DNA of 52,621 nt from Lysobacterales bacterium (GTDB taxonomy: Bacteria; Pseudomonadota; Gammaproteobacteria; Xanthomonadales; Marinicellaceae). The DNA is taken from NCBI GenBank assembly GCA_027067055.1, contig JAMOMK010000020.1, positions 1 to 52,621 on the forward strand. Direction: 5' to 3'. Below, piece by piece: positions 3,010 to 25,160 of this stretch (its first letter is position 1; the number at the start of each line of letters is the position of its first letter). The notes beneath the pieces are model-generated. The model had not been told where the DNA came from. It saw nothing but the letters and a program-made list of their open reading frames with translations, and made no database searches. A program made the translations under genes and the position numbers.

Positions 3010-3012
3010 CAG

Positions 3013-4891: not shown

Positions 4892-4973
4892 GTAATCACC
4901 TAAAAAAGCACTCAAACTGACCTCCAACACGTGGCATTTTTGCTTCACAAAATTATAACCACATGTCTGCGGC

Positions 4974-5110: not shown

Positions 5111-5131
5111 TTTTTTCGTTGTTGTATTCAA

Positions 5132-6856: not shown

Positions 6857-6930
6857 AAATGGCTCTCTAGTTTACACTAAGATTGATTTAACTTGGATGA
6901 ATGTTTAATTAAATAGTACTATAATAATTA

Positions 6931-7010
6931 TCAACCCTGCAATAATGTGTCTTTGACATGAGAATTTCTTATCTTCCTGAATTACGGTATTATATCGCAG
7001 GGCTAATAGT
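6931..7010. repeat. 80-bp dispersed repeat, copy 1
   Basis: The block caaccctgcaataatgtg followed by tgagaatttctta, cctgaattacggtatta and cgcagggctaatag matches 32992-33073 closely, and its right half matches 48721-48775. AACCCTGC near the left end and GCAGGGCT near the right end are inverted, so the unit is an imperfect palindrome. It lies in the recJ/GNAT divergent spacer and may overlap their promoters. Confidence 0.55.
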
Positions 7011-7051
7011 AAGTATTGTTATTTTTTTATCTGTTATTATAAAGTAATGCC

Positions 7052-7552: not shown

Positions 7553-7675
7553 TTAACCATTGCTATTAATGGATTCTACAGAAGGAATCTTTGTAGTTAA
7601 TCACTTTGGTGGTGAGTCTACTTATTTGGAAAAATAATGAGTTGGTGATTGAGCAATGATTTATATTAACTACAC

Positions 7676-7707
7676 AAAAAAACCCAGTTAAAATTAACTG
7701 GGTTTTT
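7676..7707. terminator. Bidirectional intrinsic terminator
   Basis: AAAACCCAGTTAA and TTAACTGGGTTTT form a 13-bp perfect inverted repeat with A- and T-runs on either side, so it works in both directions. It lies downstream of the acetyltransferase and beyond groEL. Confidence 0.75.
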
Positions 7708-7785
7708 AAAATGTGAGAAGACTCAAATTTTAAATTAGATTGGATTAGTAGTTTGTCAGGTTGTTTTACAAAAGAACAAAAATGG

Positions 7786-7810
7786 GTGGACACACAGGTC
7801 CACACTCTAC
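7786..7810 (-). repeat. Single GTAG-type REP, CTATGT-loop class
   Basis: Read on the minus strand this is GTAG-AGT followed by stem GTGGAC, loop CTGTGT and stem GTCCAC. No inverted partner was found close by. Confidence 0.5.
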
Positions 7811-7825
7811 AGAAAATCCAGCCAT

Positions 7826-7856
7826 AAAAAAGCCTCGATATTTCTACCGAGGCTTT
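7826..7856 (-). terminator. groESL terminator
   Basis: On the minus strand GCCTCG and CGAGGC pair around a short loop and are followed by a run of T (TTTTTT at the 7826 side). This is an intrinsic terminator about 70 bp past the groEL stop. Confidence 0.75.
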
Positions 7857-7872
7857 GTCGTTTTCTTTCTGA

Positions 7873-7897
7873 GATTCCTGCCTTCGCAGGAATGACG
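7873..7897. repeat. CATTCCTGCGAAGGCAGGAAT palindrome, single copy
   Basis: GATTCCTGCCTTCGCAGGAA followed by TGACG is one copy of the dispersed palindrome also seen at 4039, 4157, 27861, 30674 and 30748. It sits in the 3' untranslated part of groEL, before the terminator. Confidence 0.6.
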
Positions 7898-7923
7898 TTT
7901 TTTGTCTGGAGTGACGGGGTTAG

Positions 7924-9582
<1,659 letters not shown>

Positions 9583-10060: not shown

Positions 10061-11299
10061 TTATTTTAATTTATCTTGAGTTAGGATAGCTTGCTCAAGT
10101 TTTGATTCATTTTTGATTTCTTGAATATATATAAAGACTGAATAAACTGATGCAAGAGTAAGGACTATTAAGAGAACGCTTGATACGACAAGTAATTTAT
10201 TTCGAGCAAAGAATTTTTTAAATAGGTACCTTTGGGTATGTTTTGTGGCAGAAATGGGTTTGTTTAATGACCATTTGTGTAAATCTTTTGCGAAATCGAA
10301 CATAGTAAAATAACGTTTTAAGCTATCCGTTCTTAATGCTTTAATCAGAATGTTACACAAGTCATTGTCAAGGGTTGATTCAATAAGTACTTTAGAAACA
10401 TATTTCTCATCTTCTTTTTCATCATAAGTTTCAGGTGAAAACTCAGGCAATTTACTGTCTTTGATAAGCAACTGTAGTAAAGTAGCGGCTAATGAAAAAA
10501 CATCAGTTTTAGTTGTTAAACCTTCGCCTTTGATTTGCTCAGGTGAGGCTATTTCTGGCGTATAGGCATTAATAGTGTTATTGTCTTTTTCATAGGTAAA
10601 TGCAGCAATTCCAAAATCAATAATTTTAATATTTCCATCTTTATCAATTATTATATTGTCGGTTTTCAAATCACCATGGATAATTAAATTTTCATGGGCA
10701 AACTTAATCGCATTAGCTATTTTCTTTATCATGCATACAATAGTGGTATTGTTGATGTTCTTTTTTTCGATATAGGCATCTAGTGGAATCCCTGCTTCGA
10801 TATATTCCATAACTAAATAATAAATTCCATCCTTTGTCTGTCCGCCATGTAAAAATGAAACAATATTTGGGTGATTAAGTTTTGAGAGAGTTCTTTGTTC
10901 TCGATTAAATAAGGCGATAGTTTGTTTGGATTGACTTAATGCCATTACCTTAATAGCCACGGGTTTTTGGACTGTTGAATCTATGCGATGTGCTTTATAA
11001 ATATAGGACATACCTCCAATTGCTATAAGTTCTGTTATTTTATAATTGCCAATTGTTTTACCTGTTAAGTCAGTAATGGATTTAAGTTGTTGGAAAACAT
11101 TACCAGAATTAGCCACTTCGAGCACTTTGTTTTTTTTATTAACTGCCTTGATTAATTTACTCACTCTTTGTTTGACAGCATTTGGTACATTATCTAGCCG
11201 TTTTAATTTTGATAGTGCTTGTTCTTGAGGAAAGTCAACTAAGCTTTCAAAGATTTCTGTTGATTGTTGCCAAATTGTCATATTGTTTTTAACTATCAT
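10061..11299 (-). CDS. Membrane-anchored Ser/Thr protein kinase, short form
   Basis: A 412-residue eukaryote-like (PknB-type) kinase. It has a helical N-terminal segment (about 1-80), then the kinase domain: glycine loop around IAIGGMS (93-99), catalytic lysine K117 in VAIK, HGDLKTDN (208-215, catalytic D210), DFG at 228-230 and SPEQ at 252-255. HGD replaces HRD, so it is a non-RD kinase and may not need activation-loop phosphorylation. One membrane helix (about 371-391) follows, and the protein ends about 20 residues later. Relatives paired with ECF sigma factors usually carry long TPR or propeller domains after the helix, so this one appears truncated. It starts 4 nt after the sigma factor gene. 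Confidence 0.85.
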   Translation of the reverse strand: MIVKNNMTIWQQSTEIFESLVDFPQEQALSKLKRLDNVPNAVKQRVSKLIKAVNKKNKVLEVANSGNVFQQLKSITDLTGKTIGNYKITELIAIGGMSYIYKAHRIDSTVQKPVAIKVMALSQSKQTIALFNREQRTLSKLNHPNIVSFLHGGQTKDGIYYLVMEYIEAGIPLDAYIEKKNINNTTIVCMIKKIANAIKFAHENLIIHGDLKTDNIIIDKDGNIKIIDFGIAAFTYEKDNNTINAYTPEIASPEQIKGEGLTTKTDVFSLAATLLQLLIKDSKLPEFSPETYDEKEDEKYVSKVLIESTLDNDLCNILIKALRTDSLKRYFTMFDFAKDLHKWSLNKPISATKHTQRYLFKKFFARNKLLVVSSVLLIVLTLASVYSVFIYIQEIKNESKLEQAILTQDKLK

Positions 11300-11303
11300 C
11301 TCA

Positions 11304-11864
11304 CTAACTCTCTTCTTCCAAAATATTTACCAAATATGCACGAGCTATTGTCCATTGTTTATGGATATGGCTTTTGCTGCAGTCATAAGTCTGTGCTATT
11401 TCATCTAAGGTCATACCCGAAAAATACCTCATTATTGTTATATTCGCTAAATCTTGATTTATTTCCTCCAATTGTTTGAGGGCATCGTCTAATTCTAATA
11501 ACTCTATGGCAATGTCATCATTTCCCATAACTTGAGATACACTAAAATCTGTATATTTTCCTTTTCGTTTTTGACGATGGTGAGAGCGTACAATATCAAC
11601 TAAGAAGAAGCGCATGCAACGAGCAACGGTATTGTAAAAATGTTTTTTATTTTCATAGTGCTGATTGTTATTTGATTTTAGCTTTAAATAACATTCATTA
11701 ACTAAGGCAGTAGGGGTTAATTGTTGCCCTGGATTTAGTTTGATTAGTTCATAGTGAGCTAGCTGTTTTATAGATGGATAGAGTTTATTGAATAACTCAT
11801 CAGAATTAATGTTGCTGATGTCTTCCTCTATAATCTGGGTAATATGATTTAATGTTTTTTGCAT
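11304..11864 (-). CDS. ECF-type RNA polymerase sigma factor (Sigma70_ECF group)
   Basis: A 186-residue sigma factor of the ECF subgroup commonly linked to Ser/Thr kinases. The hallmark LTPTALVNECYLKL is in region 2, followed by FYNTVARCMRFFLVDIVRSHHRQKRKG (quoted here only as VDIVRSHHRQKR). Region 4 has ITIMRYFSGMTLDEIAQTYD and a helix-turn-helix with KSHIHKQWTIARAYL. No anti-sigma factor is adjacent; the kinase 4 nt downstream is the likely regulator. Divergent from the beta-helix gene at 11975 with a 110-bp spacer, which may be its own target promoter; that link is inference. Confidence 0.9.
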   Translation of the reverse strand: MQKTLNHITQIIEEDISNINSDELFNKLYPSIKQLAHYELIKLNPGQQLTPTALVNECYLKLKSNNNQHYENKKHFYNTVARCMRFFLVDIVRSHHRQKRKGKYTDFSVSQVMGNDDIAIELLELDDALKQLEEINQDLANITIMRYFSGMTLDEIAQTYDCSKSHIHKQWTIARAYLVNILEEES

Positions 11865-11974: not shown

Positions 11975-14647
11975 ATGAATCTAAATATTATTAAATTTAT
12001 TATTTCTTGCATGGCTTTTTCAGTTAGTGCTTCTCAAATATCCATCCAAACGAAAAAACTCCAAGCAGGTTCCCCCATTGTGAGTATAAATGGCACAGCT
12101 TGTAGCTTTAACACTATTGCAGATGCCATTGCAGCAGCTCAGCCCTTTGATGTTATTAACATTAAAGGTGGAATTCATGAACAATTGATTGGTGAAATCC
12201 CTATCAGTTTAACGCTTGTCGCAAGCAGAGGAATAACAGGTTGCGAATTTGGCAATAATGCCTTTGCAACCATTGATGGGTTAGGACAAACCTTTGATAC
12301 AACAGGAGGTTTGGTCAAAGTCACTAATGGTGCGAAAGTGACATTTCAAAATATGGCATTAAGGAATGCCTCAGCATTAAATGGTGGAATCATGGCAGTT
12401 GTTGATGGCAGCAGTGTAAGTCTTGTTAACACTGATATCTATGATGGCTCTACGGTATCAGCAGGAGGCAATGTTTATGTTTCGACAAGCACTGGTGTTG
12501 AAAGTAGCCTTATCCTAAATGCTGGCTCGACAATTTACAATGGAACAGTGATTACTGGCGATGGAGGAGGTATTGCTATCTACGGCTCAAAACTGCATAT
12601 AAATGAAGGTTCTATTGGGCTGATGGGTATTAATCAAGGCAATACTGCGTCCAATAATGGCGGTGGTATTTATGCGGAAAATTCTACTATTGATATTAGC
12701 AATTTTGATAGTCACATACAAAACAATCAATCTGATAACTTTGGTGGAGGTATTTATACAGTTGGTTCAACTTTGACCATTACGAATGCAACAGTAAATG
12801 ATAATACAACAGATTTAAATGGTGGTGGCATTTATTCTGATTCTAGTAATATAACAATAATTAATGCCACAATTAGTGGCAATAGAACCACAGAAATGGT
12901 TGCTAACGGCGGAGGCGGAGGTCTCTATTTGACTGGCTCAGGTGAAGTTGTTATTGATTTAACCACCATAATATCCAATATATCTAAAACCTTCGGCGGT
13001 GGAATTTTAAATGTTGGAAACATCACAATGCTAAGAATTATTAATGGTAGCGACATCATTAATAATTCTGCTTCATCAGGAGGCGGTATATTTACGTTAT
13101 CACCATTAACAGTTGATAGCAGTAGTATTAGATTCAATACAGCCAGTTCTACTTTAGTAGGATCTGGAGGTGGAATTAGATGTCATAGTTGTCAAAGTTT
13201 ATCCGTTGTTAACTCATCTCAAATTTCAAATAACACAGCTTCAACTAGTGGTGGTGGAATAAGTATATTTTCAACTACAGATGTCAATGTTGAACTTAAA
13301 AATTCTACATTTATAGGAAATACTCTCACTGACACATCATCGTCTTTTGGTGGAGGTGTTTTTCAGGATGGTGGGACTATTTTAATTGACACTTGTACTA
13401 TTTCTAGCAACAGTGGCGCTGCAAACGGTGGTGGTGTTTCCCTTTTTGATTTAGATAGTGTTACCGATAGTGTGCATATTATCAATTCGCAGTTTTTTAA
13501 TAATTCATCATCAAATGGAGGTGCATTGTATTTAGAAGAATTACTTGATGCACATATTACAGGATCAGCTTTCAATGCTAATAATGCAGCACGTGGGGGA
13601 GCAATTTTTTCCTTTGATAGCAACCTTGTTATTGATACATCGATTATTTCTGAAAATAATGCAACACTTGATGGAGGCGGAATACGTGCTGTAGACAGTG
13701 ATTTAAAAATAAGAAGTTCAACAATTATTCAAAATGAAGCCTTTGATTTACCTGCAGTTCTTCAGGATAATTTTGGAGGCGGAGGTATAAATGCATTGAA
13801 TTCAAATTTAGATATTGTTAATTCTAAAATAAATCAAAATATTAGTAATGTTATTGGAGGAGGTATATTTTACGAGGGCAGTATTAACAATTCATTATCA
13901 ATTAAATCAGAATACGGTATTTTACCTGATGAATGCTTGCCAGCAACATTGGGATTTAATGAATATTGCAGCGAAGTGTCAAACAATGAAGCAAAACTTG
14001 GAGCAGGTTTAATGATAAAGGGTTCAACCAATGAAGAAGGAATCAACCTAAGTGGTGTGGCTTTAAATGCAAACAATGTAATAGATGACGGTTCTCCACC
14101 AGTTAGTGGAGTTACAATACATCTTGAGCTTTCTAATCCACTTGATACTGAAGTAACATTGGAAAATTTGATTTTAGTGGAGAATGATGGGCTTTCTCAT
14201 CTAAATAGATCGGTAATCTATATTAATGGGAATGTTATATTTAATCTTCTTTCTACAACTATTGCCAATAATAATGTAAGAGGCATTCGAGCCACAGATA
14301 ATAATTCCTCCATTGTTGTACAAAATAGTATATTACAACAAAATAATGGGGGACCTCTGGTCGGAGCTACCGTTCCATTTATTAGCCTGTGTAATAATTC
14401 CCAACCACCAGAATCAGGTGGACAAAGTTTTGGCCTGGACCTTGGCGATCCACAATTTATCAGTACCAGTCGCGGAGATTATCGATTGTCTGAGACTTCA
14501 CCAAGTCGTGATAGTTGTACCTTTGGTTCATTATTAGATATTAATGGAAATGTACGTCCAAATGATAACTCCAATTATGACCAAGGGGCATTTGAAATGA
14601 ACGCACATTTTATTGTCGATCAGGTATTTATAAATGGATTTGAATAA
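11975..14647 (+). CDS. Secreted right-handed beta-helix protein with FINGFE tail
   Basis: An 890-residue exported protein. A signal peptide (about 1-19, ISCMAFSVSA) is followed by SFNTIADAIAAAQPFDVINI, the usual entry strand of a parallel beta-helix. Then come about 15 turns marked by GGGI plus N-rich ladders (NNGGGIYAENSTI, FGGGIYTVGS and similar), as in polymorphic outer-membrane proteins and pectate-lyase-like folds. Near the end are the block DPQFISTSRGDYRLSETSPS and NYDQGAFEM, then the tail VDQVFINGFE. No catalytic site is evident, so surface adhesion or display is more likely than enzymatic action. Divergent from the ECF sigma factor. The tail is shared with four other proteins here. 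Confidence 0.8.
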   Translation: MNLNIIKFIISCMAFSVSASQISIQTKKLQAGSPIVSINGTACSFNTIADAIAAAQPFDVINIKGGIHEQLIGEIPISLTLVASRGITGCEFGNNAFATIDGLGQTFDTTGGLVKVTNGAKVTFQNMALRNASALNGGIMAVVDGSSVSLVNTDIYDGSTVSAGGNVYVSTSTGVESSLILNAGSTIYNGTVITGDGGGIAIYGSKLHINEGSIGLMGINQGNTASNNGGGIYAENSTIDISNFDSHIQNNQSDNFGGGIYTVGSTLTITNATVNDNTTDLNGGGIYSDSSNITIINATISGNRTTEMVANGGGGGLYLTGSGEVVIDLTTIISNISKTFGGGILNVGNITMLRIINGSDIINNSASSGGGIFTLSPLTVDSSSIRFNTASSTLVGSGGGIRCHSCQSLSVVNSSQISNNTASTSGGGISIFSTTDVNVELKNSTFIGNTLTDTSSSFGGGVFQDGGTILIDTCTISSNSGAANGGGVSLFDLDSVTDSVHIINSQFFNNSSSNGGALYLEELLDAHITGSAFNANNAARGGAIFSFDSNLVIDTSIISENNATLDGGGIRAVDSDLKIRSSTIIQNEAFDLPAVLQDNFGGGGINALNSNLDIVNSKINQNISNVIGGGIFYEGSINNSLSIKSEYGILPDECLPATLGFNEYCSEVSNNEAKLGAGLMIKGSTNEEGINLSGVALNANNVIDDGSPPVSGVTIHLELSNPLDTEVTLENLILVENDGLSHLNRSVIYINGNVIFNLLSTTIANNNVRGIRATDNNSSIVVQNSILQQNNGGPLVGATVPFISLCNNSQPPESGGQSFGLDLGDPQFISTSRGDYRLSETSPSRDSCTFGSLLDINGNVRPNDNSNYDQGAFEMNAHFIVDQVFINGFE

Positions 14648-14678
14648 GTACGCTCTCAAACAACATGTTATAACCTAA

Positions 14679-14700
14679 ACTTGATTGCATGAAATCAAGT
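14679..14700. terminator. Inverted repeat between convergent genes
   Basis: ACTTGATT-gcatga-AATCAAGT is an 8-bp perfect stem in the short spacer between the beta-helix gene and the minus-strand gene at 14736. It lacks a strong T-run, so it is only a candidate terminator. Confidence 0.4.
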
Positions 14701-14735
14701 ATTTCTTACGCAAAAATATTGACTTACTTTGTCAT

Positions 14736-15197
14736 TTAACTAATTTTTTTGTGAAAATTAGTTTTAAACATAACCACAAAAATTATAGATATGAGTAAAA
14801 ACAAGAGCCAGTAAATTTGGTTAATCGGTATCACCTGAGGGGGGATACTTCCAGCTAGACAGGTAACGGTGACAGAAACGGTTGCCATTGAATTGCCAGT
14901 TAGTGTGTAGGTGAAATTGTCGGTAGTTATACCATTGTTGCAATAGTTATTGTTTGGTTGATAATTTATGCCAAGCCCAGGTAACACTGAACTAATCAAG
15001 CCATTTGTGGGCTGAGTAAATGCCGTCACATTATCGCCTTTGTTAATTGTGTCATTATTAAATACAGGTAAAAGTGTTGTGCCACTATTTTCAATAACAA
15101 CAGCTTGGTCATCCACTGCAACAGCAGACATTGCCAAAGTTGATAATAATGTGAGTATAAATAGTAATAGTATCTTTAAAAATGTAATTTTAAGCAT
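14736..15197 (-). CDS. Exported Ig/cadherin-like domain protein with IPTL-like C-terminal helix
   Basis: A 153-residue protein. A signal peptide of about 22 residues (LFILTLLSTLAMSA) leads into one bacterial Ig-like/cadherin-like domain: VAVDDQAVVIENSGTTLLPV, NDTINKGDNVTAF, then YQPNNNYCNNG...DNFTYTL...VSVTVTC. The C-terminus is PQVIPINQIYWLLFLLISII followed by a basic end (KTNFHKK). A proline-bearing motif, one hydrophobic helix and a basic tail is the layout of IPTL-CTERM sorting signals, here with INQIYW in place of the usual PTLSQWG. It is unusually small for this class, with only one domain. It may be anchored in the membrane or processed by an exosortase-like enzyme. Confidence 0.7.
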   Translation of the reverse strand: MLKITFLKILLLFILTLLSTLAMSAVAVDDQAVVIENSGTTLLPVFNNDTINKGDNVTAFTQPTNGLISSVLPGLGINYQPNNNYCNNGITTDNFTYTLTGNSMATVSVTVTCLAGSIPPQVIPINQIYWLLFLLISIIFVVMFKTNFHKKIS

Positions 15198-15368
15198 GAA
15201 ATTATTCCTCTGATTTTGTTGTTTTTTAATTGAGAGTTTTGCATAACTCTACTTACATTTTCTTACTTTCGTTTAATATCTAAATATTTCCCCATGTTTA
15301 AAAATAAACTTTTACAATTCATAAGAAAGCGTGAAGTATGTTTTATGTAGGAAATTCACTTTCCTATA

Positions 15369-17267
15369 CTAAGAATCTTCAAAATCGTCTACAAACATCA
15401 CTTCAAAAAAATAACGTTCATCAGCACCTGCATCGAATATGCCCATGCCATCAATTTGATCAGGGTCATCCCAAGGCCTTATTTCCATATCCATATCTAA
15501 CGGATTTAACAAGGGAACACCAGAACATAAATCGATAGCCGGTGAGCCAGCAGCCAAATGAAAATCACCCAGAAGCCGATTAACAAATACAGGATCGTCA
15601 ACCAATACATTTAGACCAGTAAAACTAGTCGCTTCATGTGATACCAAACAATTGATTGTTAAATCACCACTAACAGGACCAAATAAATCACCTGAAGTTG
15701 GGTCATGTACCACTGATGAACTTAAAGACATTGAAGAACTCAATGCGGGATCAACTTCAAAAGTACTATTAACCACATGATTGTCAGCAAATGTGCTGTG
15801 ACGTATTGCAATCGAAGCTCCAGCAGATACCCTTATGGCCTCAAAATCAGAGTATCCATCAGCCCCACCATTGCCATTGTCATCAAAAACAGAATTTTCA
15901 ATGGTAATTATTGTATTTCCCCCACTAGCGACAATGGCTGTACCAAAGTCGGCACGGTTTTCTTCAACGTAAACATGACTTAAGTTCATGGTTGCATCAT
16001 CAATAAAAAAACCTCCACCAAATCCAATAGATGTACCTGAGCGGTTGTTAATAATCAAATTACAACGATCACGCTTCCAGCAGCCTCCAACCCTTCTTTC
16101 AATCTCAAAAATTGAACTGCCTCCTACATATGCGCCACCTCCATTGCCACCAGCTTGATTGTCTACTATCCAAGTTCCATTGGCATAAAATTGATTGATT
16201 CCTCCTGAACTATCCATATAAATACCACCACCTGGTTCATTGTTTAAATTATCATTGTCAGCTGTATTGCCTTGAATATAAATGGGTGCATCTTTAGAAC
16301 CCAAACAATGAGTCTCATCGCACATTTGCTGCCCAAACAAATAAAGACTGGCAGAAGCTCTTATATAGGCGCCGCCGCCTTCTTCAGCACTGTTGTTGTT
16401 AAAAAATCCAGGAAAAGAACTTATCATCATTGGGTGTATTTCAGAATACATGCTGATTTTACAATGGCCACGCATAAAAACACCACCACCATTGGTTGCC
16501 GCCGAGTTATTGGAAATAGTGCTTATACCAGTTAACGTGATTTGAGCAGCTCCACCATTGCAATATAAGCCTCCACCTAAATTAAGTGATGAATTGTTGG
16601 CAATTATCAAATCTTGCGCAAAAACATTAATATTTGTCTGACCCAGACCAGACCCTGAATTAATATACATGCCCCCTCCGACGTTACCAGAATTGTTGAA
16701 AATATTGACCCTCAACAATTGTAGCTCCACTTCAGCAAGATCAACTGACAATGCTGCACCGATAGTTGGTGGCATGACTACCCCACCAGTTAAAGTAAAG
16801 TTTTCTATACGAACTATTCTATATAGATTATTAGTTTCTCCTAATATAGTTATTATTGGTGTTTGGTTTGCCGCCCCGTTTATAGTAGTGAAATCCACAA
16901 AATTTTGATTATTGATTTCAGCATCGGAGCAGGTAGCAAAGCCACCTCTAAGAATTAAACTTTGGTTTTGAAGTACAATGCTTTCAATATAAACCCCATT
17001 AGATGCGACTCTTACCTCAGTAGATCCCGTATCAATGGCATCCTGAATACTACTAACATTAGAGTCAAAATCACAGTCAGCATCCGCACCTATGGTCACA
17101 AAATCAGCCCCTCCATGCAATTTAATTTGTTCACTGGTGCTGAGAAATGACCGATACATATCAAGATCATGAGCCACTTTGTCATCAATATTAATAGTCG
17201 TAGCAGCCAATGGGTTGGCAAAACAAACAGCAAGAACAAGTAAGGTAGTTATATATTTCATTTTCAT
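15369..17267 (-). CDS. Secreted beta-helix (Pmp-like) protein with FVDDFE tail
   Basis: A 632-residue exported protein. The signal peptide is about 22 residues (LLVLAVCFANPLAA). The start of the helix is SSIQDAIDTGSTEVRVASNG. The body has repeated GGG-Y/F/I turns with N-x-A ladders (NSAATNGGGVFMRG, NSAEEGGGAYIRA, AGGNGGGAYVGGS). The segment DPVFVNRLLGDFHLAAGSPA and DAGADERYF near the end matches the closing region of many such proteins. The C-terminus is EVMFVDDFEDS, the shared F-x-D-x-F-E tail with two extra residues. No enzyme site is visible; surface display is inferred. Confidence 0.8.
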   Translation of the reverse strand: MKMKYITTLLVLAVCFANPLAATTINIDDKVAHDLDMYRSFLSTSEQIKLHGGADFVTIGADADCDFDSNVSSIQDAIDTGSTEVRVASNGVYIESIVLQNQSLILRGGFATCSDAEINNQNFVDFTTINGAANQTPIITILGETNNLYRIVRIENFTLTGGVVMPPTIGAALSVDLAEVELQLLRVNIFNNSGNVGGGMYINSGSGLGQTNINVFAQDLIIANNSSLNLGGGLYCNGGAAQITLTGISTISNNSAATNGGGVFMRGHCKISMYSEIHPMMISSFPGFFNNNSAEEGGGAYIRASASLYLFGQQMCDETHCLGSKDAPIYIQGNTADNDNLNNEPGGGIYMDSSGGINQFYANGTWIVDNQAGGNGGGAYVGGSSIFEIERRVGGCWKRDRCNLIINNRSGTSIGFGGGFFIDDATMNLSHVYVEENRADFGTAIVASGGNTIITIENSVFDDNGNGGADGYSDFEAIRVSAGASIAIRHSTFADNHVVNSTFEVDPALSSSMSLSSSVVHDPTSGDLFGPVSGDLTINCLVSHEATSFTGLNVLVDDPVFVNRLLGDFHLAAGSPAIDLCSGVPLLNPLDMDMEIRPWDDPDQIDGMGIFDAGADERYFFEVMFVDDFEDS

Positions 17268-17380
17268 TATCTCTATTCAATTTATTTTTATTAAAAGGTA
17301 TCAGAGGTATATGCATAACTAAAAACGGTGGGAATATAGCCTCTTAGCTAACAATTGTTAAAATAAAGCTCTATTGGCTA

Positions 17381-17439
17381 TTTTTTCCTCTAAAAATCAA
17401 ACTATAGAATGACTTTAGTTTCAATTTTTAGAGAAAAAA
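17381..17439. repeat. Long imperfect hairpin in the divergent spacer
   Basis: TTTTTTCCTCTAAAAAT on the left pairs with ATTTTTAGAGAAAAAA on the right, with one bulge, and the stem continues through AAACTA/TAGTTT to a loop of about 12 nt. It lies in the 385-bp spacer between the minus-strand gene starting at 17267 and the plus-strand gene at 17653. The T-runs are on the wrong side for a terminator, so it may be a regulator site or a small element. Nothing else is recognisable in 17268-17652. Confidence 0.45.
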
Positions 17440-17652
17440 CTAACTCAATGTGCGTCTCCATCCCATTCGTCCTTAGCTATGAATATACCTCATCTATTAA
17501 TTCGATTAATTGGAATAAAAGTTTTTCTTGAGAACCTTTTGTGGAATAAGTCGAATAGATAAATGCTGATGTACGAAGTTAATTATAGGAAGCTTTTATT
17601 CATCAACAAAACATAAATTGTCAATTTTAAAATTAACTTTATAGGAAACAAA

Positions 17653-18288
17653 ATGAGCCACGCTTTTAATAAAATAAAACCAATGACACTACTAACCAAT
17701 AATCATCTTCAACTTATAAGACAGCATCATTTAAGGCGTATCATTACTTGTGTAATTATAATGCTTCTGAATTGCTATTCAGCAAGTGCTGATGACAATA
17801 AGTTTTCACTTGGTCTAAGTATAAGTAAAGACAGTATAGATGATCTTCCAAGTTCTTACATCGACAAGGGGCTAAAGCTTGACTTTGGATACACTTTGAA
17901 TAGAGTATTTTCTCTGGAACTAAGCTATTATAAAATAGGAGATATTAACTCACCAAAACCAGTCATACCAAGTGATGGCATATTTACGGCTACAACAAAG
18001 GTGAATGCTTTAGATCTATCGGTTTTAGCAAATCATCAATGGGATCGATTTTCAATATATGCCAAACTAGGTGTTTTTTATTCTGATTTAACATCCAAGG
18101 CTTATATGCTTAACAATAAAATAGGTGAATTTTCAAATTCTGGATCAAATTTATCTCTTGGTATTGGGGCAGGGTATAAAATTAATAATAATTTTAAGTT
18201 TGTTTTGGATTATACAGACTCTGATTCATCTGATCCAGCCAATACTTCCATAGCAATAACTTCATTAGGTCTTAAGTATACCTTTTAA
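17653..18288 (+). CDS. Outer-membrane beta-barrel protein (OmpA/OmpW-like fold)
   Basis: A 211-residue porin-family protein. It has an unusually long basic N-region (about 30 residues, HHLRRIITCVIIMLLNCYSASA) before the likely cleavage site at ASA-DD. The mature part alternates hydrophobic residues in eight or so strands (FSLGLSISKD, LKLDFGYTLNRVFSLELSYYKIG, FSIYAKLGVFYSDL, LSLGIGAGYKINNNFKFVLDY) and ends in LGLKYTF, the terminal aromatic recognised by the BAM machinery. A later start, at M11 (17683) or M37, would shorten the leader. Specific function is unknown. Confidence 0.75.
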   Translation: MSHAFNKIKPMTLLTNNHLQLIRQHHLRRIITCVIIMLLNCYSASADDNKFSLGLSISKDSIDDLPSSYIDKGLKLDFGYTLNRVFSLELSYYKIGDINSPKPVIPSDGIFTATTKVNALDLSVLANHQWDRFSIYAKLGVFYSDLTSKAYMLNNKIGEFSNSGSNLSLGIGAGYKINNNFKFVLDYTDSDSSDPANTSIAITSLGLKYTF

Positions 18289-18397
18289 CATATTACTATC
18301 TGTTGATAAATCGCTTAACGAGTAAGTAAGACAAGTTAATAGAACTGTATCCATTTTTTGGATATAGATAAAACATTTAAAAACCAAAAACTCAGAG

Positions 18398-18442
18398 ACC
18401 TTTGTATAACTCTTTTGCTCGTCCCACGAGTTATGCAAAGGT
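18398..18442. repeat. 45-bp inverted repeat upstream of the broken reductase gene
   Basis: ACCTTTGTATAACTC (18398-18412) is repeated inverted as GAGTTATGCAAAGGT (18428-18442) with one mismatch. It lies 26 bp before the start codon at 18469. It could be the end of a small mobile element or an operator. Confidence 0.45.
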
Positions 18443-18468
18443 ATCTGTCATTAACAAAGGAGAATAAA

Positions 18469-18711
18469 ATGAGAAATATTGACTGCCATATTGCTATCAC
18501 ACTAGATGGTTTTATATGTCGTGATGATGGAAGTATTGATGGATTTTTAATGGAGGGTGAGCATGTGGAAGATTTTATTAAACCTTTAAATGACTACGAT
18601 TCGGCTCTAATGGGAAGAAAAATATATGAATTTGGTTTTCAGCTCGGATTAATGGCTGGTGAGCCCGCCTATCCGAACTTGAAGCATTATGTGTTTTCAG
18701 AATCATTTTGA
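18469..18711 (+). pseudogene. Truncated dihydrofolate-reductase-family (RibD C-terminal-like) gene
   Basis: An 80-codon frame, MRNIDCHIAITLDGFICRDD..., carries the N-terminal half of the DHFR/RibD-C fold: the I-A-x-T-L-D-G-F-I-C-R-D-D-G strand, LNDYDSALMGRKIYEFG and LKHYVFSES. Family members are about 180 residues, so roughly half is missing. It has a good ribosome binding site (AAAGGAG) before ATG 18469, better than the start 111 bp upstream in the same frame. The frame stops where sequence similar to the dispersed repeat at 32975-33010 begins (tttgaaatagagtgac against tttgagatagagtgac), which suggests that an insertion or deletion at a repeat removed the 3' half. Confidence 0.65.
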
Positions 18712-18919
18712 AATAGAGTGACTAATTTTTCAATAATTCAAACCGACCTTGATCATCTATATAAGCCTGAGTTATTTCTATTTTTTAGAAGCTCCATAAT
18801 AATGAGATATGAGTCACAAAAATATTAGTCTTAACTAAATTTTATTAATAAGTAAAAACTAATTTCAATTTTTATCGAACTATAAAACATCATAAATAAC
18901 ATAATGTATAGGATGAAAT

Positions 18920-20611
18920 ATGAAAATTTACTTAATAATAATTTTATGGGTTACAAACATACCGAATTTGGATGCTAAAGTTTCAAACGAAGATTCGTAT
19001 GTAATGGCAGCTGTCAGCAAGGTAGTTAATATGATTTCTGATAGTACAATCTGGAATTTAGATTCAAGTGGCATAGTCGGGGTCGCTAACCCAATTGATA
19101 GATTAGGTGAGGCTCTGTCTCACGGTGATTATAATAATGATGGCATTCAAGATTTGGCAATTGGAATCCCCAATCATGATTTTAGTTTTTTTGGCACAAC
19201 GATAAATAATACAGGAGTGGTGCTTATTATTTATGGAAGATCTAACGGTCTTTCATCATTTAACAATCAATTCCTTTATCAAACATTTGAATCTGACCCT
19301 CCTAATTTAGAAAACATAAATGGTGTTGAAAGTGATGATTTTTTTGGAAAGTCTCTTGCAAGCGGCGATTTCAATTGCGATGGTATTACCGATCTTGCAG
19401 TCGGTACGCCAGAAGAAGATTACAACACTATAAATCCAGCTATTAGACAAAATGTAGGAGCAATAAATGTTTTTTATGGTTCAATAAATGGATTTGCAGA
19501 TTTAGGAGCGGGTTCTACCTTTCTTTTTCAAGGTACTGGTTTAGGGATATTTTTTGATGGAAGTATCAGTGCCAATGATAGATTTGGCTGGAGTATGACC
19601 ACTGGTGATTTTAATGGCGATGATTGTGATGATTTGGCCGTTTCTGCTCCATTCGAAGATTTTGGAAACCCCTCTCCAACCATCATAGATGCTGGACAAG
19701 TTGAAGTGTATTATGGAAGAGCACAAGGCTTATCTGGAGAATCAGAGTTCAGGGATTCATTATCACAACAATCGGATGATATCCCTGAATCATCTTCAGA
19801 AACTAATGATCAATTTGGTTTAAGTCTAACTGCTGGAGACTATAGTTTGGCAGGGATTGGAAGTAATAATTTTGATTTTCTGGCTGTGGGCATTCCTGGT
19901 GAGGACATTAATAATGTAACCAATGCTGGTGCAGTACAGGTATTTGAAGGTGGAAGTAATGGAATTGATTTACAAAATACCAGTGTAATATGGTCTCAGG
20001 CTGGAGATATAATTGGTATTGTTGAGGAGCATGACAGGTTTGGTTCGTCACTGACAACTGGTGATTTCAATAATGATTTTGTAGACGACTTAGTTGTTGG
20101 CGTACCTCGAGAGGATATTAATAGCTCTGGCATAAATGATGCAGGTTCAATAAATATTATTTATGGTGATTCATTTGGTTTATCAAGTGCCAATAATCAA
20201 TCTTTCCATCAGAATTTTAACGGGATAATTGGAACTGCTGAAAATTCAGATCAATTTGGGGATGTTTTAACAAGTGGAGATCTAAACAATGACTCATTTG
20301 ATGACTTAGTCGTAGGCGTTCCTCGCGAAAATAGTTCTAGCGGTGCTTTTCATATTCTTTATGGTTCTATCAGTGGTATCACTACTGACAATAATGAATA
20401 CCAAACAAATAATTTTAGTCCCTTGGATGAAATGGGGTTTTCAATGACTATTGCAGATTTTGGCAATGGAGGAGAACTGGCTGTCGGTATACCTGGGGAT
20501 GATATTTTCAATGGAAATAACGATGTAGGGGCTGTTGAAGTTTTTAAATTTACTCAACCAATGCTGCCTGAATTAATTTTTTCTAACTCATTTGAAGGTT
20601 TATCCTTTTAA
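18920..20611 (+). CDS. Secreted FG-GAP (integrin-alpha-like) propeller protein with FSNSFE tail
   Basis: A 563-residue exported protein. The signal peptide is about 19 residues (IIILWVTNIPNLDA). Seven FG-GAP repeats can be counted, each with a calcium-loop-like D-x-N-x-D-x-x-x-D and an A-V-G-x-P block: GDYNNDGIQDLAIGIP, GDFNCDGITDLAVGTP, GDFNGDDCDDLAVSAP, a less regular one at GDYSLAGIG...LAVGIP, GDFNNDFVDDLVVGVP, GDLNNDSFDDLVVGVP and ADFGNGGELAVGIP. Seven blades match an integrin-type propeller. The C-terminus LPELIFSNSFEGLSF carries the shared tail five residues before the end. It is followed 5 nt later by the next secreted protein gene. Probable surface adhesion or display role. Confidence 0.85.
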   Translation: MKIYLIIILWVTNIPNLDAKVSNEDSYVMAAVSKVVNMISDSTIWNLDSSGIVGVANPIDRLGEALSHGDYNNDGIQDLAIGIPNHDFSFFGTTINNTGVVLIIYGRSNGLSSFNNQFLYQTFESDPPNLENINGVESDDFFGKSLASGDFNCDGITDLAVGTPEEDYNTINPAIRQNVGAINVFYGSINGFADLGAGSTFLFQGTGLGIFFDGSISANDRFGWSMTTGDFNGDDCDDLAVSAPFEDFGNPSPTIIDAGQVEVYYGRAQGLSGESEFRDSLSQQSDDIPESSSETNDQFGLSLTAGDYSLAGIGSNNFDFLAVGIPGEDINNVTNAGAVQVFEGGSNGIDLQNTSVIWSQAGDIIGIVEEHDRFGSSLTTGDFNNDFVDDLVVGVPREDINSSGINDAGSINIIYGDSFGLSSANNQSFHQNFNGIIGTAENSDQFGDVLTSGDLNNDSFDDLVVGVPRENSSSGAFHILYGSISGITTDNNEYQTNNFSPLDEMGFSMTIADFGNGGELAVGIPGDDIFNGNNDVGAVEVFKFTQPMLPELIFSNSFEGLSF

Positions 20612-20616
20612 CAATT

Positions 20617-22278
20617 ATGAAATGTAATACGATGATTTATTTGTTTGCTGTTAAAATAATTCAAAAGAAGTGTTGGATTATTTTATTTATTATTTTTTCT
20701 TCAGTTAGTTTTTCTGACGATTTTTATGTCTGTGATTGCCAAAACAATTCAGATATTGATTGTTTGGTCGGCAATGACAATTTTGATGGTAGTTTGATCA
20801 ATCCTTTTCAGAGTATTAGTCAAGCTAATAGTGTTTTTAATTCACTTTCAGCAGGAGACTCGATTCATTTATGTAAAGGCGGTTCATGGTTTATTGCTTC
20901 AAATTTGCGTTGGGTTAATCAGTTTTGTCGGGTAGATAATAGATGTATCATAACTAACTATAATCCACCTTGGGCATCTGGTGATGAACAGAAACCGATA
21001 CTGAATTTTCAAAATGGTTCAGATGGTTTTAATCTAGCTGATAGTGGCAATGCTGAGCATGAAGAAGGTTATTTAATAGAAAATCTCGATTTAAGAGGCA
21101 GTGATGATGGCAGCGGTGTGTTTATTGCTAATGATGTAGATGATGTTATTTTGAGCAATTTAACCATTGCAAATTTCCAGTTAGGTGTTTATTTGGGTTC
21201 ATCAAATGATTGTAATATCAATGATAGTGCATGTGATGGTCAAAATAAACGCATCACTTTGCAAAATAGTACGATTCAACATAATACGTCACAGGGTTGG
21301 CTAGGAGGGTCTAGTGGTACAAAATTACTCAATAACTATTTTTCCGATAATGGTACTCAAGCAGTTTTTGATCACAATGTCTATATAAGTGGGTCAGCCC
21401 ACCAAGTAACTCAGGGGATTTTAGTTAGTGGTAATCGACTGTATAGAAACACCTTAGATCAAGATGGAGCTTGTTCATCTGTATCTTTAGTTGTGCATGG
21501 AGAACATGACAACTTGGTTATTAAAAACAATGAAATTTGGGAGGATGAAGGCAATGCATTATCAAGTTGTTGGGGTATTGCTGTTGATGGAGGTTATTCA
21601 GAGGCAGAGTCTTTCACTAATGTTCTTATCCAAAGCAATAGCATTATAAATGTTGGTCGTGTTGGTATTGGCTTGGGTTCTTGTGACAATTGTGTTGTTG
21701 AAAATAACATTATTTCCAATCATCAAGAGTTTCCAATTAGGGCCATACTTGCCCCAGACCGCAATTTAGCAGCGAATGACTTACCATTAGATAACATCTC
21801 CATTCGTAATAATTCAATTTTCATTAATAATTCATCAGCAAGTACGGCAATTACTGTTAGCACTATGGGGGCTAATCATCTGATAGTGAGCAATGCCATT
21901 TCTTATACTGGCAACTCGAATTCCTTTAACTGTTTTGACACAGACCTTCCATCATCAAGTTATTTAGATATTAATAACAACTTATGTTATACACCAAATG
22001 CTCCCAATGCAGAGTGGTCAAATCATTTTGGCAACTTATCTCAATGGCAAATCAGTTCAGGATTTTCTATTAATGCAATAGAAATGAATCCAGGATATTT
22101 TAACCCCGAAAATAATTCACTATGGGCTCAAGACCAACAAGCATCAATAGTTAATACAGGTCACAGCACGTTAAGTTCTGCATGTGATTATAATTGCAGG
22201 CCAAGAGGTGCCAATCCTGATATTGGCGCTTATGAATGGGTCGGAGATGTGGTGGTTTTTAACAATGGTTTTGAATGA
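20617..22278 (+). CDS. Secreted parallel beta-helix protein with FNNGFE tail
   Basis: A 553-residue exported protein. The hydrophobic segment WIILFIIFSSVSFS (about 20-33) is the likely signal core after a long N-region; a start at M6 (20632) is also possible. The mature start DDFYVCDCQNNSDIDCL followed by PFQSISQANSVFNSLSAGDSI is the classic entry of pectate-lyase/NosD-like beta-helices. The rest has N-rich turns (ITLQNSTIQHNTS, LVIKNNEIW, VVENNIISNH, SIRNNSIFINN). It ends DIGAYEWVGDVVVFNNGFE. There are many cysteines, in keeping with an exported, disulfide-bearing protein. It is co-transcribed with the FG-GAP gene (5-nt gap). Confidence 0.8.
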   Translation: MKCNTMIYLFAVKIIQKKCWIILFIIFSSVSFSDDFYVCDCQNNSDIDCLVGNDNFDGSLINPFQSISQANSVFNSLSAGDSIHLCKGGSWFIASNLRWVNQFCRVDNRCIITNYNPPWASGDEQKPILNFQNGSDGFNLADSGNAEHEEGYLIENLDLRGSDDGSGVFIANDVDDVILSNLTIANFQLGVYLGSSNDCNINDSACDGQNKRITLQNSTIQHNTSQGWLGGSSGTKLLNNYFSDNGTQAVFDHNVYISGSAHQVTQGILVSGNRLYRNTLDQDGACSSVSLVVHGEHDNLVIKNNEIWEDEGNALSSCWGIAVDGGYSEAESFTNVLIQSNSIINVGRVGIGLGSCDNCVVENNIISNHQEFPIRAILAPDRNLAANDLPLDNISIRNNSIFINNSSASTAITVSTMGANHLIVSNAISYTGNSNSFNCFDTDLPSSSYLDINNNLCYTPNAPNAEWSNHFGNLSQWQISSGFSINAIEMNPGYFNPENNSLWAQDQQASIVNTGHSTLSSACDYNCRPRGANPDIGAYEWVGDVVVFNNGFE

Positions 22279-22335
22279 GATTGTTAAAAACAAGGATGTT
22301 ATTTTTTGAAGCGTTAATATAGCGACATATACTAG

Positions 22336-22776
22336 CTATTCGCCTATATCTTCATTCCATAATTCAGGTTTTTCGGCAATAAATTTTTTCATGATGTCTT
22401 TGCACTCTTGGTTGTTCATCTGAATGATTTCGACACCTTTGGATTTGAGGTGTTCTTCTTCACCCATAAAGGTACTGTTTTCACCAATAACAACCTTGGG
22501 TATTCCATATAAAAGTACCGTGCCAGAGCACATGGAGCAAGGTGAAAGTGTGGTGTAGAGTGTACACTCTTTGTAGATTGAAGCTTTTTGCCGTCCTGCA
22601 TTTTCCAATGCATCCATCTCGCCGTGTAAAACCACAGAGCCATCTTGCACCCGTTTATTGTGTCCTGCACCGAGTATTTTACCTTTGTGAACAATAACAG
22701 AACCGATAGGAATCCCACCTTCGTTGTAACTTTTTTTGGCTTGCTTGATGGCAGCTTGGAGGAATTTTTGATGCAT
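22336..22776 (-). CDS. Cytosine deaminase, yeast FCY1 type
   Basis: A 146-residue zinc deaminase. The zinc site is HGE (H51, proton-shuttle E53) and PCSMC (C80, C83). Several stretches match the yeast cytosine deaminase pattern closely: GGIPIGSVIV, GAGHNKR, LYTTLSPC, YGIPKVVIGEN and the C-terminal WNEDIGE, whose acidic residue corresponds to the base-specificity tail of the fungal enzyme. It should convert cytosine to uracil for pyrimidine salvage. It is not related in fold to the bacterial CodA amidohydrolase, the usual bacterial enzyme. It stands alone, with no codB-type permease. tRNA adenosine deaminase TadA is the main alternative but does not carry the DIGE tail. Confidence 0.8.
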   Translation of the reverse strand: MHQKFLQAAIKQAKKSYNEGGIPIGSVIVHKGKILGAGHNKRVQDGSVVLHGEMDALENAGRQKASIYKECTLYTTLSPCSMCSGTVLLYGIPKVVIGENSTFMGEEEHLKSKGVEIIQMNNQECKDIMKKFIAEKPELWNEDIGE

Positions 22777-22839
22777 GGTTTAGGGTTAGTTTGAAAGGGT
22801 TAATCATAAACTATTTTCTGAAATATTAAAAGAACTCAT

Positions 22840-22958
22840 GTAGGGTAGTACCTATGTGTGCTACCGTTTTTCAGTTTAACGATAAATTAAAAATGTTGTG
22901 GTTCTAATTTAATCCTGTGGTGATTTAACAACTGGAGCACACATAGGTGCTACCCTAC
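22840..22958. repeat. REPIN, CTATGT-loop class
   Basis: The left arm is GTAGG then stem GGTAGTAC, loop CTATGT, stem GTGCTACC (one G-U pair). The right arm is AGCAC, loop ACATAG, GTGCT, then ACCCTAC. GTAG at 22840-22843 and CTAC at 22955-22958 are the outer ends, giving 119 bp. It lies between the cytosine deaminase and the gene at 22975. On the plus strand the left hairpin is followed by GTTTTT. Confidence 0.7.
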
Positions 22959-22974
22959 GATTGGGTTTGTTTGG

Positions 22975-24879
22975 TTAGTACACAATTACTGTTATTTGTG
23001 CAGTAACTCCAGCTCCTGTATCAGGTATAAATGCACGGCAGTTTAATTTATTAGTTCCATTGTTTACACAATTTGCTGATATGTTAGCATCAATAGTCGC
23101 AGATGCGATCCAAAATCTTGAATTAATGTCAGTTGGAAAGGTAAGCGTGCATCGACCTTCTGTAACACCATTAGCTATAGTTATAGCTCCAGCTGTTGTA
23201 GTTCCATTAAATTGCCTGTTGATTACTGAACCTGTTTGACCACATTTTGGAGCAACCATATATTTAACCATGCCCCCTGAGGTAATGTTTTGTGATGTGT
23301 TTCCTGAAACTTTCAAGTTTCCATTTACATCGAGAAGCTCAGAAGGTGTTAGAGTGCCAATACCGACCTTGCCATCTTGAACTATAGATAATCTAGCAAT
23401 ATAGTTAGTTCCTAATTGTAAACTTCCTGTATTAAAAAAACTCGTAGTAAGCATAAAATCGTCTGGAGCAATATTGGTTCCAGATTGGTTCATTGAACCT
23501 ATTGCTCCTTTACGAGCTCCATCTTCATAGTAAAAGACATTTACTCCTGCCGCACTTCCAGAATGGTTATGTTGATTTCCAAGAACAAATAAAGCATCAA
23601 ACCCAGTATTGGCTCTAATTGTTACAGAATCTCCAATTGAATTTTCAACAGTATTCACGTTGAGAGCCCATGGAGCATTACTTAAATCAGCATAAGCCCC
23701 ACTAAAATCATCGGCTGCATTTTTATCCCAAGCAGTGGTATCAGTGGTATTAACATAACCATTATTTAAAACATAGTCATCGACTTGAGTTTCAGTAAGT
23801 TGTGTATCATCATCACCATCGGCTAGTCCAGCAGGCACGCCTATTAATGAGCTAAATGCTCCATCGAAACCGCTTGCTGTCTGCCATGAACCTACGCCAT
23901 TGGCATCAGAGGTAAAGACTTTTCCAACACCTTGAGTGCCATCAACAATGCCTAGGGAACCATTGATAGTCACTTCATCTGTGGAAAAATCACCGCCTAT
24001 TAAAGGTGTTGTTGTCTCAGAATTTTCTATATACAATGTGTTGTCTCCAGTTTCAAATCTACCAGCTCTATTGCCTAAAAACACATTGCCACTTCCTGTT
24101 ATATTATGTCTTCCCGCAAAATATCCAACACTTGTGTTCCTAGAGCCAGATATGTTGTCATATAATGAATAACCCCCTAAAGCAGTATTAAAGCTTCCAG
24201 TAGAATTTTCTGACATAGAATATACTCCTATGGCAGAATTGTAACTTCCTGTCTCGTTACTTCTTAATGTATTGTAACCAACTGCAGAATTTTGTTCTCC
24301 TGTTGTTGTGAATACCATTGAACGGTATCCAAAACCAGCATTGTGGTTGTTTGTACCATCATCATTCTGACCAGAAGAAATACCAAAATAATAGGAATCA
24401 CCTGAAACTCTAGCATCGGATAAACCATCAATATTAGTTGCGCCCGTAGTCGGAGTATTTGGTTGCCAACCTGTGGTGTTGTCAAATGTTAAGACTTGTC
24501 CATTGGTCGCGCCTTTATCAATTAAAGTTGTTGCATAGGGAACAGCAGCCATTTTTTGTAATGGTGTTAGTGTTGTGTAACTTACATCAGTTGGTTTTTT
24601 GACGCTAATTTGCAACCAAACATCCAGTCCATCAAAAGTAGCAATACCAAGATTGACATCAGGGATGGTAAATATTCCATTTGTTACTGTAACTGTATGA
24701 GAAGAAAGGTCACCAACAAGATTTCCATCCGATAACGCATCAAATGCTTGTATGTTTATATTGAACGGGCCACTTGCTGGCGAACCGCCATCGGTTAATT
24801 CACCTTGATAACTAAAAGTGTGATCAATTGCTTGTGCATTAAAGGCACAAATGAGTAATAGACTTAATATGGTTTTCAT
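22975..24879 (-). CDS. Exported surface protein with YadA-head-like repeats
   Basis: A 634-residue exported protein. The signal peptide ends near A17 (CAFNAQA). An N-terminal beta-sandwich region (FSYQGELTDGGSPASGPFNI, later LTPLQKMAAVPYATTL) is common in secreted proteins of this kind. Residues about 175-280 hold five degenerate repeats of about 23 residues, with the pattern TG-x-x-N-[ST]-[AS]-[VIL]-G-x(3)-[LM], as in the head of trimeric autotransporter adhesins and tail-fibre-like proteins. GKVGIGTLTPSELLDVNGNL follows near residue 500, as in many tail-fibre/adhesin proteins, but no S74 peptidase is seen. It has no FE tail and no membrane anchor of the YadA type. It follows the small protein at 24894 by 14 nt. 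Confidence 0.75.
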   Translation of the reverse strand: MKTILSLLLICAFNAQAIDHTFSYQGELTDGGSPASGPFNINIQAFDALSDGNLVGDLSSHTVTVTNGIFTIPDVNLGIATFDGLDVWLQISVKKPTDVSYTTLTPLQKMAAVPYATTLIDKGATNGQVLTFDNTTGWQPNTPTTGATNIDGLSDARVSGDSYYFGISSGQNDDGTNNHNAGFGYRSMVFTTTGEQNSAVGYNTLRSNETGSYNSAIGVYSMSENSTGSFNTALGGYSLYDNISGSRNTSVGYFAGRHNITGSGNVFLGNRAGRFETGDNTLYIENSETTTPLIGGDFSTDEVTINGSLGIVDGTQGVGKVFTSDANGVGSWQTASGFDGAFSSLIGVPAGLADGDDDTQLTETQVDDYVLNNGYVNTTDTTAWDKNAADDFSGAYADLSNAPWALNVNTVENSIGDSVTIRANTGFDALFVLGNQHNHSGSAAGVNVFYYEDGARKGAIGSMNQSGTNIAPDDFMLTTSFFNTGSLQLGTNYIARLSIVQDGKVGIGTLTPSELLDVNGNLKVSGNTSQNITSGGMVKYMVAPKCGQTGSVINRQFNGTTTAGAITIANGVTEGRCTLTFPTDINSRFWIASATIDANISANCVNNGTNKLNCRAFIPDTGAGVTAQITVIVY

Positions 24880-24893
24880 AATTTTTCCTCTGT

Positions 24894-25160
24894 TTAATTT
24901 TCAAATCCATCTTTAAAAAGATCTTCTGGAAGTGGGGCAGTATTTGTTTTGTGCCAAAAACCGCCATTAAGTGAATAATTGTTTTGTGAAAGAGTGTTGC
25001 TGGCATCAACTTGTCCTATGCTGCCTTGTATTTGGTATTGACCGCCAGACATTTTCCCTCCACCGTTATTTATGGTGTATTTTTTTATTGCATATTGCGC
25101 AAAAACATGTGTGGTAATCACACACATAAGCATAACAATAATAGCTTTATTTTTTTTCAT
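24894..25160 (-). CDS. Small secreted protein with FKDGFE tail
   Basis: An 88-residue exported protein: signal peptide (VMLMCVITTHVFA), then YAIKKYTINNGGGKMSGGQY, QIQGSIGQVDAS and NYSLNGGFWHK. The GGG-x-M-S-G-G, G-x-I-G-Q-x-D and L-x-G-G-F-W pattern recurs in secreted proteins of gammaproteobacteria. It ends LPEDLFKDGFEN, the same tail as four larger proteins in the window, one residue from the end. As the smallest carrier it is the most useful for defining what the tail needs. It is the first gene of a two-gene operon with the repeat protein at 22975. Confidence 0.75.
   Translation of the reverse strand: MKKNKAIIVMLMCVITTHVFAQYAIKKYTINNGGGKMSGGQYQIQGSIGQVDASNTLSQNNYSLNGGFWHKTNTAPLPEDLFKDGFEN

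Follow-up and report, generated by a model that had tools for sequence, protein, structure and literature searches.

The window examined here is a 52,621-nucleotide stretch of the genome of a Lysobacterales bacterium (GenBank assembly GCA_027067055.1, contig JAMOMK010000020.1), in which five genes for exported proteins share a C-terminal tail with the core F-x-[N/D]-[G/S/D]-F-E. Across genomes the tail co-occurs with one of two type II secretion systems (T2SS), here called system A, and it is probably a linear export signal that this system would read. Three of the tagged genes lie on the forward strand and encode an 890-amino-acid (aa) beta-helix protein (positions 11975 to 14647; Pfam PF13229; tail VFINGFE at 14624 to 14644), a 563-aa FG-GAP protein (18920 to 20611; PF01839; tail IFSNSFEGLSF at 20576 to 20608) and a 553-aa protein matching a Pfam beta-helix model (20617 to 22278; tail VVFNNGFE at 22252 to 22275). 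The other two open reading frames (ORFs) are on the reverse strand and encode proteins of 632 aa (15369 to 17267; tail MFVDDFEDS at 15372 to 15398) and 88 aa (24894 to 25160; tail LFKDGFEN at 24897 to 24920). The ORF translations bore out the original prediction, made from the sequence, of these five genes and their ends, of signal peptides on all of them (5/5 passed a crude signal-peptide score) and of differing bodies (beta-helix in two, FG-GAP in one and no Pfam family over the cut-off in two). The five tails were covered by no Pfam or NCBIfam match, the five proteins matched no CTERM model of NCBIfam, and an Rfam scan of the window gave zero matches. The 88-aa protein is one of a family of small proteins, of which the stretches fetched from this genome contain five further tagged copies.

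The 3.42-Mb genome (145 contigs) has 66 copies of the DNA pattern encoding F-x-[ND]-[GSND]-F-E, compared to 14 of the reversed pattern, and with a stop codon immediately after it the numbers were 24 and 1. In the window and 40 further stretches, 44 of 568 ORFs had the motif within 15 residues of their C terminus, whereas 200 shuffles gave a mean of 0.085; these stretches were picked because the DNA pattern was present, so that the unbiased count is the genome-wide one, and genes were found by a greedy longest-ORF method that is error-prone in GC-rich stretches. From 84 C-terminal examples, 44 in this genome and 40 from 11 of the 12 relatives sampled, the consensus [DE]-x-[ILVM]-F-x-[ND]-[GSD]-F-[ED] was derived, in which the search itself required F, [ND], F and [ED]. 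The residues ahead of the first F were not so constrained, yet every one of the 84 tails had I, L, V or M directly before this F, and 58 had D or E three positions before it. The tail stopped exactly at E/D in 63 of the 84 and one residue later in 14, and at most eight residues followed the motif (the 15-residue search admits up to nine). No position upstream of -3 was conserved among the 84 tails, which gave no sign of a shared C-terminal domain. As nothing further upstream is conserved and most tails end at E/D, we regard the tail as a linear motif and not as a shared domain. The core had thus been correctly described, although the description was too short by three upstream residues; the proposal that unrelated bodies share a recognition signal, instead of a homologous domain, was supported.

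To see whether carriers of the motif are exported, we scored ORFs for signal peptides using a crude rule based on hydrophobicity, with a choice of start site. In the window and the 40 stretches, 32 of 37 complete tagged ORFs had one, compared to 160 of 487 complete untagged ORFs; in 80 of the at least 116 loci from a scan of named genomes the counts were 58 of 60 and 157 of 415, and among the relatives 35 of 39 complete tagged and 123 of 385 untagged ORFs passed. The comparison proposed with the original prediction therefore shows that the motif is enriched in proteins with signal peptides and is not equally common in others.

The prediction, worded for a C-terminal tag, was not supported in this respect, as the motif is also found elsewhere in proteins. 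Three of the 568 ORFs in this genome's set carried the motif right after the signal peptide (0.23 expected by shuffling), and two of these three encode Lcl_C-type proteins. Among Lcl_C homologs, an N-terminal motif was also identified in genomes G010 and G009, with a looser FASGFE in G487, giving 4 of the 13 loci for which an ORF was returned (30 loci were fetched, and the count includes that of G000). AlphaFold models were of poor quality, with mean pLDDT values of 56.0 for the 88-aa family and 34.5 for the Lcl_C family, and the coil into which the tail of the former is modeled proves nothing. One N-terminally tagged Lcl_C-type gene (L043, positions 2570 to 3049, reverse strand) is apparently broken, its homology being split over two ORFs on a short contig. 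Within proteins of this genome nine further matches were found, one of them probably due to chance. The longer form of the motif had eight internal copies compared to 0.275 expected from shuffles; seven lie 75 to 100 residues before the C terminus, ahead of an extra domain, and the eighth precedes a C25 peptidase domain. In relatives, four of six internal matches also look motif-like (L080, L101, L104 and L106). Since N-terminal and internal copies exist, a strictly C-terminal reader is unlikely, although the other placements are a minority. The exported proteins at L048, L053, L062 and L063 extend approximately 75 to 100 residues beyond the motif, and six of seven such C-terminal extensions resemble one paralogous domain, five of these ending in W.

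To define how widespread the tag is, stop-anchored matches were counted across the class. The 364 genomes outside the order of the window's genome (from a class sample of 369) each had between zero and two, with 38 having any, which is similar to the background given by a control pattern. Within the order, 90 of 250 genomes had at least one match, with a maximum of 36. The scan of named genomes returned at least 116 stretches; among those listed, 84 were labeled as Marinicella, Lysobacterales, Tahibacter, Dokdonella, Rudaea, Pseudofulvimonas or their kin, the genus names being ones that we take to belong to the order. The remaining listed stretches comprised 23 labeled only as Gammaproteobacteria, Proteobacteria or Pseudomonadota, seven from other gammaproteobacterial groups and two from Bacteroidota. 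Pattern matches in Sphingobacterium and Aquimarina were taken as chance. Among the genomes sampled, the tag is therefore nearly restricted to one order.

The T2SS secretin GspD was near-universal in the order, being present in 120 of 121 genomes sampled, including all 60 tagged ones. The sole exception, G011, is the one genome of family f1 without the strict tag, and it has no GspD of any kind. GspD in general was uninformative as a partner of the tag at 120/121, and a signal appeared only after a tree of 20 secretins split them into two clades, A and B, each with 100/100 support; the secretin of an f2 genome (G412) branches off basally on the A side. In the window's genome, the system A operon was identified at L273 on the reverse strand by profile matches, with GspC at 10559 to 11407, GspD at 7461 to 9323, GspE at 6017 to 7471 and GspF at 4798 to 6012, and a 306-aa ORF between GspC and GspD. 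The models for GspD, GspE and GspF (TIGR02517, TIGR02533 and TIGR02120, respectively) exceeded their curated cut-offs; for GspC, T2SSC (PF11356) was over its cut-off, while TIGR01713 was below (80.7 versus 101.6). The GspC of system A is of the PDZ type, as T2SSC was matched by 29 of 29 sequences and PDZ_2 by 28 of 29 (E value of 0.01). By eye, and with no family search, the genes flanking the A operon resemble ftsE and ftsX. System B of this genome is a gspE-to-gspD operon that includes a weakly XpsN-like protein matching no Pfam family. Downstream of its gspD lie two ORFs of 492 and 359 aa with signal-peptide-like starts (L274, 10278 to 11756 and 13525 to 14604, forward strand); they have no NCBIfam match, and each has homologs in four other genomes, within the stretches that contain system B.

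System A was sought in 250 genomes of the order with a profile built from nine A secretins and was counted as present at approximately 630 bits or more, the rest of the scores being partial hits, hits of an Xcs-like kind in f2 (430 to 559 bits) or low B-type hits. Under a strict count (at least two matches), 60 genomes had both tag and system A, 11 had the tag only, 44 had A only and 135 had neither (Fisher P = 1.7e-18); G004 and G424 were counted as A positive on long partial hits. Eight more genomes had shorter partial hits, five of which begin within six bases of a contig end, the other three being those of G488, G517 and G575. As 34 of the 44 A-only genomes lie in a single family, f9, a variant tag was suspected there. 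Homologs of a tagged S8 peptidase in A-positive genomes free of the strict tag ended in FFDEFE (G398), FMLDGFEDL (G395) and FMVDGFENSPL (G489), and that of G020 has FWDRFE followed by about 18 residues. The corresponding comparison of S8-peptidase tails in A-negative genomes failed, close homologs being rare there. In stretches from f9, some of which had been selected for homologs of a tagged protein, F-x-D-R-F-E was found within the last 30 residues of 10 of 211 ORFs and the reversed motif in none. Across the 250 genomes, 27 of 43 from f9 had between 7 and 81 copies of the DRFE pattern and every other genome had five or fewer, the reversed form reaching five in one genome.

The tails could be remnants of the start of a domain, for instance the first strand of a jelly roll, that spread by descent and have no present role, and in one tagged protein (L117) FFCDDFE does begin what looks like a domain that we take to be of the jelly-roll type. 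We consider this explanation highly improbable, given the number of tails that end at E/D (63 of 84) on bodies that differ, and given that rewriting to DRFE across many f9 genomes suggests selection.

When the DRFE variant and the eight partial A hits were counted, 91 genomes had both, seven the tag only, 21 A only and 131 neither, so that system A was present in 91 of 98 tagged genomes. The best 141 of the 250 genomes (completeness of at least 98%, contamination of at most 1%), in which no partial A hit is involved, gave 34 with both, none with the tag only, seven with A only and 100 with neither, DRFE counted. The search for a partner co-occurring with the tag, proposed with the prediction, thus pointed to system A. 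Phi coefficients with the tag, over the 121 genomes, were 0.78 for A, 0.46 for Peptidase C25, 0.32 for the Lcl_C homolog and 0.09 for any GspD.

Concordance of this kind could reflect shared ancestry only, with the tag and system A both ancestral and lost together in derived lineages, and some other ancestral machinery reading the tag. Both are jointly missing from large groups (most of f2, f10 and f8), where many ancestral genes could be gone, and only four comparisons (A, C25, Lcl_C and any GspD) were made in all. Set against this are contrasts repeated within families: A was present in 5/5 tagged genomes of f10 and absent in 46/47 untagged, present in 2/2 tagged genomes of f2 and absent in 51/51 untagged, and present in 3/3 tagged genomes of f8 (one by a partial hit) and absent in 32/36 untagged. 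At the level of genera in high-quality genomes, tag and A agreed in 64 of 73 under the strict count and in 68 of 73 with variants and partial hits, and within-family permutation gave P values of 1.5e-4 and 5e-5, respectively, genera not being independent. Together with G011 and the poorer tracking of the tag by C25, this makes ancestry alone quite an unlikely account.

A processed tail was also considered, in which a sortase-like enzyme or protease, such as the clan CD peptidase C25, cuts at [ND]-[GSD]. The pair [ND]-[GS] is similar to an asparaginyl cleavage site, N or D was retained in the variants seen, and two C25 matches are present in the window's genome, where one C25 protein has an internal motif and resembles PorU below cut-offs. 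Peptidase C25, the one sortase-like candidate tested, was found in 40 of the 121 genomes and in 33 of the 60 tagged ones; its absence from 27 tagged genomes largely refutes such processing and led us to reject C25 as a universal reading enzyme. R follows N/D in the f9 variant, against cleavage at [ND]-[GSD], and cleavage of N-terminal copies would be useless. Processing is accordingly very improbable, and an asparaginyl transpeptidase site is likewise disfavored by the N-terminal copies and by the R after D. The protein at L044 (3897 to 7430, reverse strand; 1,177 aa) has a C-terminal C25 domain and matches PorU sortase models below their cut-offs; its residues 145 to 319 match the CCXG family PEP-CTERM model over the cut-off, and the motif lies mid-protein, before the C25 domain.

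The tag might instead act after export as a surface-retention or attachment signal, with system A exporting the carriers for other reasons and the tag docking onto a partner at the outer surface. Beta-helix and FG-GAP types are common at the cell surface, and two tagged beta-helix proteins and one tagged FG-GAP protein lie in the window; the motif's freedom of place would fit docking. Two Lcl_C homologs without the motif (G430 and G483) have N termini that look lipoprotein-like by eye, which would fit the tag being a substitute for such an anchor, but G430 has system A and the DRFE variant, which makes the anchor-swap argument weak. No partner family was identified, and an anchor need not track one of two secretins. 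We judge this role unlikely.

An export signal read by system A, the reading we prefer, would work as follows. Carriers would cross the inner membrane by the Sec route, for which an N-terminal signal peptide is the established entry, fold in the periplasm and then expose the peptide [DE]-x-[ILVM]-F-x-[ND]-[GSD]-F-[ED], usually at the C terminus but in some proteins just behind the signal peptide or between domains. The exposed peptide would recruit them to system A, encoded by the gspC-gspD-gspE-gspF operon, whose secretin would carry the tagged proteins out. The receptor is possibly the PDZ domain of GspC. PDZ domains often bind C-terminal peptides, and internal hairpins may substitute for these, which would suit an [ND]-G turn. 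A bolder version remains tentative, namely that the tag is the first linear and portable T2SS signal, nine residues long, usable at either end or between domains, read by the GspC PDZ and existing in dialects, GFE and DRFE, that have each coevolved with their own system. Overall, the original idea of a shared tag read by dedicated machinery was partly supported: the carriers are exported and machinery co-occurs with them, but it is a T2SS that is indicated and not a sortase.

Several observations weigh against this reading. The association is correlational and phylogenetically structured, with an estimated four or five independent contrasts (f1/G011, f2, f8, f10 and the f9 variant), and only four families were compared for association with the tag. 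The data had already been seen when the DRFE threshold was set at 7 and the partial hits were listed, the strict result being independent of both. In 7 of the 250 genomes, all drafts of at least 150 contigs, the tag was found with no A, and another 21 genomes have A but no counted tag. Of the latter, G390, G395, G423, G436, G437, G461 and G593 are among the best 141 genomes; G398, G395 and G489 showed variant tails, no tail could be read at the loci of G390 and G018, and a tail was not seen in the single stretches of the A-positive genomes G423 and G436. The A operon as fetched comprises only C, D, E and F, and no pseudopilins (GspG to GspK), GspL or GspM were recognized by eye beside it at L273, L276 and L285, the rest of the genomes not being searched. 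When 29 GspC sequences were compared by eye, the PDZ domain showed no apparent covariation with the DRFE variant. Copies at the N terminus are few (3 of 568 ORFs), and neither N-terminal nor internal copies were found at the 80 named-genome loci, all of which had been picked for a C-terminal copy. Finally, binding of C-terminal peptides by the PDZ domain would on its own fail to explain the N-terminal and internal copies.

The tagged genes of the window lie among several others. A Ser/Thr protein kinase (10061 to 11299) and an ECF sigma factor (TIGR02999; 11304 to 11864), both on the reverse strand, adjoin the first tagged gene and are divergent from it. Around the tagged genes sampled, kinases of the same cluster were identified in 12 copies from seven genomes and ECF sigma factors in 10 copies from five genomes; this recurrence suggests that the tagged proteins are under kinase-ECF control. 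Between two tagged genes (14736 to 15197, reverse strand) is a gene whose exported product, 153 aa long, contains a bacterial Ig domain (Big_9). The C terminus of this protein has a hydrophobic stretch followed by a short basic tail, resembling a classical sorting signal, with no NCBIfam model matched. An outer-membrane beta-barrel protein (OMP_b-brl, with a weaker OmpA_membrane match) is encoded within the tagged cluster at 17653 to 18288 (forward strand), and the gene at 22975 to 24879 (reverse strand), which adjoins the tagged 88-aa gene, encodes an untagged exported protein of 634 aa that matches nothing in Pfam or NCBIfam.

Dozens of proteins with one and the same short tag, a second T2SS as an internal contrast and a natural dialect make a direct genetic test possible. 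If the preferred reading is true, the motif would predict secretomes across the order and could be used as an export tag for recombinant proteins, and a linear T2SS signal would be new. Judged by title and start of abstract, none of the open-licence papers listed in literature searches describes the motif, and no paper there was found to contain any of several literal forms of it, FADGFE and FSNGFE among them.

Short C-terminal signals read by dedicated machinery are exemplified by GlyGly-CTERM (rhombosortase), PEP-CTERM (exosortase), IPTL-CTERM and LPXTG, and the tag is like them in being a short C-terminal signal on many unrelated exported proteins. Unlike them, it has no trailing transmembrane helix or basic cluster, as the prediction had held in setting it apart from all four; it is also free in its placement and tracks a secretin, unlike sortase-linked signals. 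Like the C-terminal domain of type IX secretion, it would place export information at the C terminus of exported proteins. The tag is, however, nine residues and not a domain, in keeping with the predicted difference from type IX tails; it shows no conservation upstream of -3, and C25 peptidases, the type of PorU, are missing from 27 of the 60 tagged genomes.

A further close comparison is with other T2SS. Passages of a 2025 paper describe the selection of T2SS substrates as still poorly understood (PMC12369372), and secretion information is described as structural with no linear universal signal (PMC12369372 and PMC7949064). Passages of the 2025 paper also report that the EpsC PDZ domain is required for export of VesB in Vibrio cholerae, VesB being both a GlyGly-CTERM protein and a T2SS substrate, and that PelI binds the OutC PDZ domain through a disordered loop (PMC12369372). 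For Pel3, several flexible loops are described as jointly forming a composite signal (PMC7949064). System A is like Eps of Vibrio and Out of Dickeya in having a GspC with T2SSC and PDZ domains together with GspD, GspE and GspF. It differs in its proposed signal, which is described as structural for Eps and Out and would here be a short linear motif common to dozens of unrelated proteins. The export machine is thus of a known kind, and the novelty would lie in a linear signal for it.

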